This document shows positions 7,007-48,803 of a stretch of 64,000 nucleotides of DNA, piece after piece (the first letter of the stretch is position 1; each line of letters starts with the position of its first letter). The notes under the pieces are model-generated. The model made no database searches and was not told where the DNA came from. It saw only the letters and a list, made by a program, of their open reading frames with translations. The stretch is from assembly GCF_900093605.1 (NCBI RefSeq), contig NZ_FLYE01000012.1, positions 186,001-250,000 on the forward strand, given 5' to 3'. This DNA comes from Candidatus Terasakiella magnetica (lineage in GTDB: Bacteria; Pseudomonadota; Alphaproteobacteria; Rhodospirillales; Terasakiellaceae). Made by a program: the position numbers and the translations under genes.

Positions 7007-7279
7007 TTAGGGCGTAAACTCATAAAATACACTTGCTTTGGTTTATCAAAAATATAGGCAAGACAAGGAAATGACTTGCAGGAAGTACCAGTACTTTCAA
7101 AAGGCTTTGACGCTGTATTTGCCTATATTTTTGATAAATCCCTAAAGGGACGGGATTACTTTGAGGATGGACTACGTTATAAAACCCTTAAAGTGCATGC
7201 ACTTCTGCGGATTTCATGCCTAATCCATCCTCAAATTAATCTCCGCCAAACAAGTGTATTTTATGAGTTTACGCCCTAA
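7007..7279. repeat. 267-bp structured repeat element, copy A
   Basis: The element proper (7010-7276) begins GGGCG and ends CGCCC, with TA on each side. Perfect inverted repeats of 29 bases, including the flanking TTA/TAA, lie at 7007-7035 and 7251-7279. Inside are two further inverted repeats. The arms 7042-7060 and 7120-7138 are perfect over 19 bases and enclose the palindrome around GAAGTAC-CA-GTACTTT. The second pair lies near 7155-7172 and 7224-7241 and encloses AAGTGCATGCACTT. A second copy, inverted, is at 46898-47170. An open frame of 67 codons (7076-7279, + strand) runs through it. There is no transposase, so it is a MITE-like, non-autonomous element. Confidence 0.85.
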
Positions 7280-7956
7280 TTATCCTCAGTGGCAAGCCAT
7301 AATGGGTCTTTTATTTTTTCTAAAAATGCGGCGTGGGCTGCGAGTTCTTCTTCACTGGCCACATGGGGGCGTGGTTCTCTAAAGGCGCGTTCTTTACTGG
7401 CAATTTCATCAGAAGCCTTAGCTTCTTTTTCCAAGACAAGACCGGGTTGGCGCCCACCGATGAGTTCCAGATAAACTTCGGCTAAGAGCTCACTATCTAA
7501 AAGCGCGCCGTGTTTTTCACGATTGGAGTTATCAACCTGATAGCGCCGACATAACGCATCCAAATTAGCAGGCGAGCCGGGGAATTTCTTGCGCGCCATG
7601 ACCAATGTATCAATGATATGATTATCCATATGGGGAAATTGATGTTGTTTTAATTCCCAGTTTAAGAACGGCTCATCAAAACCCGCATTATGGATGATCA
7701 GGGTCGAATCCCCGATAAAATCGAGAAATTCCTGTGCGACTTCTTTAAATAAAGGAAAATCGCGCAAAAATTCTTCAGAAAGCCCATGAACACGAAACGC
7801 GCCTTCCGGCATATCGCGCTCGGGATTGATATATTGGTGATAGGTATTGCCCGTGGGCATATGATTGACCAATTCGACACAACCGATTTCAACAAGACGA
7901 TGGCCCTGTTTATATTCAAACCCTGTGGTTTCCGTATCGAGAACGATTTCACGCAT
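7276..7956 (-). CDS. dnaQ: DNA polymerase III epsilon subunit (3'-5' exonuclease)
   Basis: This is the proofreading exonuclease of the replicative polymerase. The 226-residue protein has all catalytic motifs: ExoI DTETTG (Asp7, Glu9), ExoII HNAGFD (Asp94) and the ExoIIIe pair His149/Asp154 in KHGALLDSELL. A short C-terminal tail for binding the alpha subunit follows. It lies three bases after coaE on the same strand. Its TAG stop codon (7276-7278) overlaps the end of the structured repeat, so the element lies directly against the gene's 3' end. Confidence 0.97.
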   Translation of the reverse strand: MREIVLDTETTGFEYKQGHRLVEIGCVELVNHMPTGNTYHQYINPERDMPEGAFRVHGLSEEFLRDFPLFKEVAQEFLDFIGDSTLIIHNAGFDEPFLNWELKQHQFPHMDNHIIDTLVMARKKFPGSPANLDALCRRYQVDNSNREKHGALLDSELLAEVYLELIGGRQPGLVLEKEAKASDEIASKERAFREPRPHVASEEELAAHAAFLEKIKDPLWLATEDN

Positions 7957-46897: not shown

Positions 46898-47170
46898 CAA
46901 GGGCGTAAACTCATAAAATAGACTTGTTTGGCGGAGATTACTTTGAGGATGGGTGAGGCATGAAACCCGCAGAAGTGCGTGCACTTTAAGGGTTTTATAA
47001 CGCGGCCCATCCTCAAAGTAATCCCGTCCCTTTAGGGATTTATCAAAAATATAGGCAAATACAGCGTCAAAGCCTTTTGAAAGTACAGGTACTTCCTGCA
47101 AGTCTTTTCCTTGTCTTGCCTATATTTATGATAAACCAAAGCAAGTCTATTTTATGAGTTTGCGCCCTAA
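46898..47170. repeat. 267-bp structured repeat element, copy B (inverted relative to copy A)
   Basis: The element (46901-47167) has the same length, ends and internal hairpins as copy A, but in the opposite orientation. Its two TIR differences from copy A include one compensating pair. The second internal stem is perfect over 18 bases (GATTACTTTGAGGATGGG and its complement). The left flank is AA and the right is TA, so a TA target duplication is not intact. A matching open frame of 71 codons runs on the minus strand from 47101 to 46886. It sits in the promoter region between divergent genes. Confidence 0.85.
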
Positions 47171-47218
47171 ATAATTATAAGTAAATAATAGCAAAATAGC
47201 TATTTCTTGGGAGGGGAT

Positions 47219-48019
47219 ATGACCGAACAACCCGCAAAAGTGCGCCAGAGCTTTCTTGTGCCGGAGATGGCCTATGTGCGCAAGGTCCAGACAGAAGATG
47301 TCTTTATGTGGCTGTCAAAAGGCTGGACCGATATGAAACTATTGAGGAAAACCTCAATGGCTTATGCGGGGCTGTTTTTATTTATCGGTCTGTTTATCTC
47401 ATTTGGCTTTTATTTTATGGGGCTGCCCTATCTGATTTTACCCTCATTGACCGGATTCTTGCTGGTGGGGCCTGCCATTGCGGTGGGGTTTTATGAAGGC
47501 AGTCGACGTCGCCAAAATGGCGAACCTTTTACGCTGATCCATGCGCTGGGCGGGTTTCGGCGCAATACATTGGCGATTATGGCCATCGGTATTGCCCAAG
47601 TGTTCCTCTTTATGATCTGGATTAAAATGGCCTTTACGGTTTTTGCCATTTCCTTTCCCGGGATCATGCCGGAGTGGGGCCATATTATTGAGCGTACCTT
47701 TTCCATGGAAGGGTTGCATTTTGGCCTGATGTTACTGGCAGAAGGCAGCATTTTTGCCGCGGGTATTTTCCTCACTGGTGCATTTTCCCTACCTTTAATG
47801 GTCGGGCGCAAAACCATGTTGATCCCGGCGATGGTGACGAGCGCATATGCAGTGATCAAGAATTTCCACGTGATGATCTTATGGGCAGCGATGATTACCG
47901 CGATCATGTTTACCGCGCTGGTTACGGGTTTAGGGCTGATTTTTGCCTTTCCTCTTATTGGACACGCCACATGGCATGCGTATTTACAAGTGATGGGAGA
48001 GGAGGGTCCTGATGAATGA
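47219..48019 (+). CDS. DUF2189 family membrane protein (first of two)
   Basis: The protein of about 266 residues has a cytoplasmic N-terminus with VRKVQTEDVFMWLSKGWTDMK. About six membrane segments follow, including LFLFIGLFISFGFYFMGLPYLILPSLTGFLLVGPAIAVGFYE, which is the family hallmark. Function is unknown; the family is typical of alphaproteobacteria. The ATG 47219 is preceded by GGGAGGGG; a TTG at 47207 would put this purine run in the coding sequence. Its last 8 bases overlap the next paralogue. Confidence 0.88.
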   Translation: MTEQPAKVRQSFLVPEMAYVRKVQTEDVFMWLSKGWTDMKLLRKTSMAYAGLFLFIGLFISFGFYFMGLPYLILPSLTGFLLVGPAIAVGFYEGSRRRQNGEPFTLIHALGGFRRNTLAIMAIGIAQVFLFMIWIKMAFTVFAISFPGIMPEWGHIIERTFSMEGLHFGLMLLAEGSIFAAGIFLTGAFSLPLMVGRKTMLIPAMVTSAYAVIKNFHVMILWAAMITAIMFTALVTGLGLIFAFPLIGHATWHAYLQVMGEEGPDE

Positions 48020-48803
48020 TATAAAAGATACGCCGTCTCAAACCTATTTGGTAGATGAGATGGCCTTGCCAAGAAAGATCGACACCACACGGGTGTTTGA
48101 ATGGCTGTCAAAAGGCTGGGCCGATGTGAAAGAATTGAAAAGGGTAAGCACATTTTATGCTGCCCTTTTTTTAATGCTCGGCCTTCTGATCTCATTTGGC
48201 TTTTATGTTATGGAGCTGCCCTATCTTATCTTGCCCGCCCTTTCTGGTTTTTTACTGGTAGGGCCTGCTATTGCGGTGGGGTTTTATGAAGGCAGTCTGC
48301 GCTGTCAACGCGGCGAGCCTTTTGCCTTAACCCATGCGTTATTGGGCTTTCAGCGCAATACTTATTCCATTATGGCGATCGGGATTGCGCAAGTTTTTCT
48401 CTTTATGGTTTGGATCAGACTGTCTTTTACGCTTTTTGCCATCGCCTTTCCCGGGGTTATGCCCGAGGCTGAGCCGATTATGGAGCGTATGTTCTCTCAA
48501 GAAGGGATTGATTTTGCCTTGATGATTGTAGGCTTGGGCGCTGTCTTTGCCAGTATCATCTTTTTCACAGGCTCTTTTTCCTTGCCCATGATGATTGATC
48601 GCAAAACCGTGCTTATTCCGGCCATGCTCACCAGTGCTTATGCGGTGGTGATTAATTTTAAAGCGATGGTTTTATGGGCTGGCTTGATCGTTTTGATCAT
48701 GTTTTTAGGCTTAATCACCGGGGTGGGCCTTATTTTGGCCTTTCCCCTCATCGGTCATGCCACATGGCACGCTTATTGTGATGTGATTGGGCAAAAACGT
48801 TAA
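48012..48803 (+). CDS. DUF2189 family membrane protein (second of two)
   Basis: The 263-residue protein is a paralogue of the one before, with the same LISFGFYVMELPYLILPALSGFLLVGPAIAVGFYEGS and C-terminal LAFPLIGHATWHAY segments. The pair arose by tandem duplication and overlaps by 8 bases, so translation is coupled and the two may form a heteromer (inference). Function is unknown. It converges with hldE, 3 bases away. Confidence 0.88.
   Translation: MNDIKDTPSQTYLVDEMALPRKIDTTRVFEWLSKGWADVKELKRVSTFYAALFLMLGLLISFGFYVMELPYLILPALSGFLLVGPAIAVGFYEGSLRCQRGEPFALTHALLGFQRNTYSIMAIGIAQVFLFMVWIRLSFTLFAIAFPGVMPEAEPIMERMFSQEGIDFALMIVGLGAVFASIIFFTGSFSLPMMIDRKTVLIPAMLTSAYAVVINFKAMVLWAGLIVLIMFLGLITGVGLILAFPLIGHATWHAYCDVIGQKR

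Follow-up and report, generated by a model that had tools for sequence, protein, structure and literature searches.

The window—the whole stretch of 64,000 nucleotides analyzed here, from Candidatus Terasakiella magnetica—harbors two copies of a structured, gene-free repeat, copy A at positions 7008–7278 and, on the opposite strand, copy B at 46899–47169. The original prediction had located the repeat at both places and described it as 267 bp long with 29-base terminal repeats. The repeat is real and these dimensions are approximate, each copy measuring 271 bp (TA to TA in copy A) and the terminal repeats of copy A matching unbroken over their first 28 bases and at 30 of the first 32. Copy A begins with a left terminal inverted repeat (7008–7041, + strand) bearing the class I end TAGGGCGTAAACTCATAAAAT, followed by arm 1, a 97-nt hairpin (7042–7138, + strand) whose motif core lies at 7055–7124 on the + strand (55.2 bits), by a predicted central mini-hairpin, TCCC-TAAA-GGGA (7139–7150), by arm 2, a 95-nt hairpin (7151–7245, − strand) with its motif core at 7163–7232 on the − strand (40.4 bits), and by the right terminal inverted repeat (7246–7278, − strand), the outer TAG of which is the stop codon of an ORF at 7276–7956 on the − strand. 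Copy B is inverted with respect to A, has A rather than T as its outermost left base, and comprises arm 2 (95 nt, 46932–47026, + strand; motif core 46945–47014 on the + strand, 41.7 bits), a predicted central mini-hairpin (47027–47038), and arm 1 (97 nt, 47039–47135, − strand; motif core 47053–47122 on the − strand, 59.6 bits). Beside copy B, the adjacent ORFs 47207–48019 and 48012–48803 constitute a tandem gene duplication, the former being 71% identical in DNA sequence over about 690 bp to a stretch overlapping the latter.

Both copies are predicted to fold with two long arms and a very small hairpin inside a terminal stem. Copy A reaches −124.6 kcal/mol compared with −55.6 ± 4.5 for dinucleotide shuffles (z −15.3), and z is likewise about −15 for copy B. 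The two copies differ at 15 of 271 bases. Two of these differences had been taken as signs of covariation, C-G replaced by G-C in the terminal stem and A-T by G-C in the second arm, and both are genuine pair exchanges. Most of the other differences between A and B are single-sided or fall within loops, and for this reason the covariation between these two copies alone proves little.

A search of the whole genome retrieved ten copies, one of them truncated. Four, A and B among them, carry class I ends (TAGGGCGTAAACTCATAAAATA) and six carry class II ends (TAGGGTCAGGACCYATTAAT); between the two classes, the interiors share about 80% identity, whereas the outer 30 bp show no relationship. In the same-genus genome G005, both the site of A and that of B lack the element, with flanks too diverged for an exact reading of any duplication; across same-genus genomes, copies are seen to be present or absent. 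T and A flank 170 of the 177 full copies, and the longest open frame per copy ranges from 42 to 93 amino acids across the 177. Solo ends, and copies without one or both arms, are also present. Solo ends devoid of an interior are found at L048/L049 (G000:C44:16591 and 17525), L046 (G000:C3:47437), and L062 (G000:C12:305474). Two solo ends adjoin genes resembling periplasmic solute-binding proteins, and one is located directly 3′ of the last codon of a penicillin-binding-protein-like gene, which uses the TAG of the element as its stop codon. By its anatomy, the element is a MITE, i.e., a short, transposase-less, TA-flanked inverted-repeat element.

The element is by no means confined to this genome. 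With the class II end alone as query, matches were obtained in 61 of 317 genomes of the order, one of which contains over 100 end matches. A scan of a named genome collection, using a pattern that permitted 240–270 bp, returned matches of 266–270 bp throughout, in Rhodobacteraceae, Sphingopyxis, Thalassospira, Henriciella, and Hyphomicrobiales (Brucella, Nitratireductor, Labrenzia, and Chelatococcus). Copies picked by their ends alone across Alphaproteobacteria are nearly all 263–270 bp long between the flanking TAs. Among the collected copies with both ends, 177 measure 263–280 bp between the outer AGGG ends and none 183–262 bp, a few being short derivatives without arms; this set stems partly from a length-limited pattern, and 69 copies collected without such a limit give the same length peak. 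Longer variants of 382–398 bp with the same ends, at least one of them with extra hairpins, occur at L190 (in genome G145) and at L109 and L157 (in G193). A complete element (L117, 8315–8584) and a matching IS5-type insertion sequence (L116, 1731–2568) are each carried on a contig classed as viral, and viral contigs carrying element and insertion sequence are a possible route between genera.

The absence of a transposase from the element had been noted correctly, and full-length partners with the same or nearly the same ends, for which a search had been proposed, were found. A viral contig carries an 838-bp insertion sequence that encodes an IS5-type transposase and has exactly the class II ends (TAGGGTCAGGACCTATTAAT). 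The same ends, save for a C in place of G at position 5, occur on elements of about 825–865 bp, in one of which the two ORFs match DUF4096 and DDE_Tnp_1. A DUF4096 gene is bounded by class I ends, again with C at position 5, and TAGGCCGTAAACTCATAAAAT ends in other genomes have a transposase gene behind them. In both end classes, MITE ends mostly read TAGGG and those of related insertion sequences often TAGGC. A further end class encountered in Vibrio, TATACCCAAGTRAC..., is common to the element and an IS630-family element encoding DDE_3 and HTH_33, the other end of that insertion sequence being less similar. Two of the end classes match IS5-family (IS427-like) insertion sequences and the third an IS630-family one. 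Since the Vibrio-class end matches the IS630 family and the others are IS5-type, a single interior is joined to the ends of two transposase superfamilies. Derivation of the element from an insertion sequence by deletion (Type I MITE) was considered and rejected, given that the interior is conserved under different ends and that the insertion sequences lack an arm by inspection; the arm model described below likewise found no arm in the insertion sequence loci L116 and L416. The element's own genome, a 47-contig draft, contains no match to the class II transposase and none to DUF4096, the same model matching five control genomes. Within the limits of that draft, the copies may therefore now be stranded.

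The proposal that the folded form matters receives strong support from covariation that extends over the terminal stem and the two arms and across many genera. Unconstrained folding of both strands of 137 copies, taken for their ends, led in 240 of 274 cases to the order long arm/small hairpin/long arm; the terminal stem averaged 32 bp, and the arms mostly measured 95–97 nt. For 24 non-redundant copies, likewise taken for their ends, canonical pairs make up 95.4% of the stem cells, whereas 100 simulations along the inferred tree gave 72.1 on average and 77.0 at most. Changes on both sides affect 69 of 98 pairs (simulated mean 26.5, maximum 35). These values lie far above the simulated null at the level of the structure, and none of the 100 simulations reached the observed values of the terminal stem, of arm 1, or of arm 2. 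This comparison is somewhat generous in that the structure was derived from the same 24-copy alignment, a circularity that the unguided folds escape; pairing played no part in the choice of copies for either set, which relied on the ends or on BLAST with copy A. In an R-scape-like per-pair test on the 24 copies, which has too little power at this sample size, no pair remained significant once all column pairs were corrected for. An alignment of 31 diverse arms (A1) has a covariation score of 0.708, compared with 0.216 ± 0.016 after shuffling and 0.10–0.24 with partners slid; as it was chosen partly for pairing, this result is supportive rather than independent. Covariation of the terminal stem is by itself no sign of a folded function, because transposon ends have to match each other anyway.

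The arms contain more than paired stems. Across 218 distinct arms, stem 1 is followed by an internal loop (NAG-G.../...A-C-G), an 8-bp stem, a second internal loop (GCA/AA), and a 7-bp stem that starts GGAA/TTTC with a conserved G·T pair and is closed by a short end loop, the key loop bases being conserved mostly at 75–94%. One pair of internal loops (AGG/ACG; GCA-GGAA/TTTC-AA) recurs in both arms, carried by the + strand in arm 1 and by the opposite, − strand in arm 2, and the first arm met on either strand is a motif arm. At the threshold used, both arms score strongly in 38 elements and one arm in 133. A covariance model built from the 71-nt arm core detects exactly the four arms in the window and nothing else below E 0.1. 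Among genomes sampled from the class, it matches 11 of 289, and among those sampled from Pseudomonadota, 60 of 398, representing 44 genera, many of them outside the class, with filters in these large searches that drop weak matches to the arm model. The loci found in this way are elements of about 262–282 bp with at least twelve different ends, most of which fold as the same cloverleaf. One small genome contains versions of 172–206 bp with a single motif arm. A single-arm version of 175 bp (L358 in G533, 1455–1629) lies three bases short of a tRNA gene (1632–1705). The TATACCCAAGTRAC... end class is present in Vibrio plasmids, one copy having an arm-model match of 32.7 bits; a BLAST search of plasmids with copy A gave no matches. 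The original observation was right and understated. It overlooked a mobile element with partner transposases, conserved unpaired arm motifs, and a phylum-wide family.

Mismatched pairs in the stems bear on the strand that folds. In the arms of 69 elements, 79 G·T and 44 A·C pairs were counted on the motif strand after removal of the conserved wobble and of similar copies (two-sided binomial p about 0.002 by our own arithmetic), compared with 20:30 in the terminal stem. Taken arm by arm, the excess has p 0.08 in arm 1 and p 0.012 in arm 2. An earlier count was set aside for having included the conserved G·T wobble, its omission leading to a smaller bias, and larger ratios in other counts rest on the choice of register or include this wobble. 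As selection for a double-stranded cruciform predicts equal counts, the excess of G·T over A·C speaks for a single-stranded fold. The bias moderately supports a single-stranded fold of the arms together with a double-stranded role of the ends, and a cruciform needing both strands equally fits it poorly; it does not distinguish RNA from single-stranded DNA.

We lean, with somewhat better than even confidence, towards a non-autonomous element whose interior module is selected as single-stranded folds recognized by a conserved Pseudomonadota factor. This reading builds on the observed mobility signature, the partner transposases, the fold and its covariation, the conserved loops, their opposite-strand placement, and their independence of end class. 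A transposase acting in trans would recognize the outer 20–30 bp as ends in double-stranded form; for both end classes of this genome it would be an IS5/IS427-type enzyme, and the element would insert at TA. The interior would represent a separate conserved module of two fixed-length hairpin arms, each with the same two-internal-loop motif; as the motifs lie on opposite strands, either strand, read 5′ to 3′, would meet a motif arm first. From these features we infer that the arms are recognized as single strands, and the recognizing factor would be conserved across Pseudomonadota, whatever the transposase. As a first guess, the arm would work within RNA transcribed across the element from either direction, where it might engage RNA polymerase, a ribonuclease, or Rho, with the consequence that insertion does little harm. 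Both the RNA form and the benefit are guesses; we would place RNA at about even, single-stranded DNA clearly lower, and any other form at a small remainder. Insertion contexts neither favor nor disfavor this guess, 26 being co-directional, 13 divergent, and 12 convergent against a background of 82/26/39, with no clear difference. The arm facing transcription is no better kept (15 vs 11), and this comparison reveals no influence on transcripts of the host. We are evenly divided on the broader formulation of a phylum-wide structured passenger, in which fold and loop motif rather than ends would define the module and elements of ~267 bp would have gained the repeats of many transposases, the IS5 and IS630 families among them, while offering a strand-specific hairpin in either orientation to a conserved host factor.

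Alternatively, the arms could function as single-stranded DNA hairpins or extruded cruciform arms, e.g., as a site for priming or protein docking on lagging-strand or transferred single-stranded DNA in transposition or DNA uptake, where one arm per strand would serve either strand. When short, the central hairpins mostly carry C-GNA-G triloops or their complement (GNA or its complement accounts for 40 of 57 triloops), and C-GNA-G triloops are unusually stable in DNA. These triloops are a hint towards DNA, the strand-specific folds and the independence of insertion context suit the same idea, and the truncated copies without one or both arms suggest hairpin formation in replication. However, no HUH or relaxase partner was seen, the linked transposases being DDE enzymes, and a cruciform formed by both strands would give no G·T/A·C bias in the arms, contrary to the counts. 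A DNA role of this kind seems possible but doubtful.

Far less probable is an ordinary MITE with palindromes maintained through template switching during repair or through gene conversion between the arms, and with no function for the fold. Transposon terminal repeats do covary for transposase reasons, and repair of quasi-palindromes can transfer a change from one stem strand to the other. Yet such repair would erase mismatches, and the same non-complementary loops are found in 218 distinct arms; these conserved mismatched loops argue against neutral palindrome repair, as do an arm length that stays at 95–97 nt and a motif that persists with unrelated ends and outside the class. About as unlikely in our estimation is that each arm is a small RNA with a target in trans, spread by transposition. 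Small RNAs derived from MITEs are on record for the QMITEs of Coxiella (PMC10969869). In the present family, by contrast, the stems differ almost wholly in sequence from genus to genus while the loops are retained, which makes pairing with a target unlikely, and there is no Rfam match: at gathering and permissive thresholds, the elements gave chance matches only, none above the gathering threshold.

Several known systems resemble the element. Correia/NEMIS, ERIC, RUP, and YPAL, bacterial MITEs with structured transcripts, are likewise short, gene-free, strongly folded, and intergenic, with mostly TA ends (PMC2229807), and RNase III or RNase E effects have been reported for Correia and ERIC transcripts (PMC10969869). 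In contrast to these, the present element is a four-way cloverleaf of ~267 bp whose two arms carry a conserved loop motif on opposite strands and whose single interior occurs with many unrelated end classes. MITEs of the IS5 family (IS427 group) are related through the ends, which correspond to those of IS427-type insertion sequences; most members of that group are listed with 2-bp direct repeats (PMC3281130). Unlike in such MITEs, the interior is no deletion derivative of an insertion sequence and also occurs with IS630-type ends. GTAG/CGTC REP elements are palindromic interspersed repeats as well, the CGTC type being common in Alphaproteobacteria and without a known transposase, but they differ in their length of 20–40 bp and their tetranucleotide tags (PMC3733652). 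The putRNA of HK022—an RNA of about 70 nt with internal-loop stems that acts in cis on RNA polymerase (PMC9378689)—serves as a working analogy only; it forms a two-stem V shape in phage leaders, and no sequence relation to the element is claimed. As candidate identities, attC sites and tagged REPs were weighed and set aside. The same applies to CIR (Caulobacter/Brucella CcrM-associated repeats), GANTC being absent from A and B and present in 16 of 177 copies, and to the 155-bp Correia type, the IHF-binding consensus of which occurs in 2 of 177 copies and in neither A nor B.

Keyword searches of open-license papers found no description of the cloverleaf family, and literature searches by end sequence returned chance matches only. 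The papers found treat MITEs mainly as derived from insertion sequences (PMC10969869, PMC2229807). Although a MITE by anatomy, the element has a real chance of containing, in its interior, a category of its own. The usual picture of MITEs is that of deletion relics with an unimportant interior; here, the interior is conserved and the ends are exchangeable, which turns this view around and implies that the fold has a function. Given such strict geometry and conserved loops, the binding partner becomes a tangible goal for experiments. The covariance model, in turn, provides a means to find and annotate what seems to be a large unnamed class of repeats in proteobacteria, including Vibrio, Thalassospira, Sphingopyxis, and relatives of Brucella.
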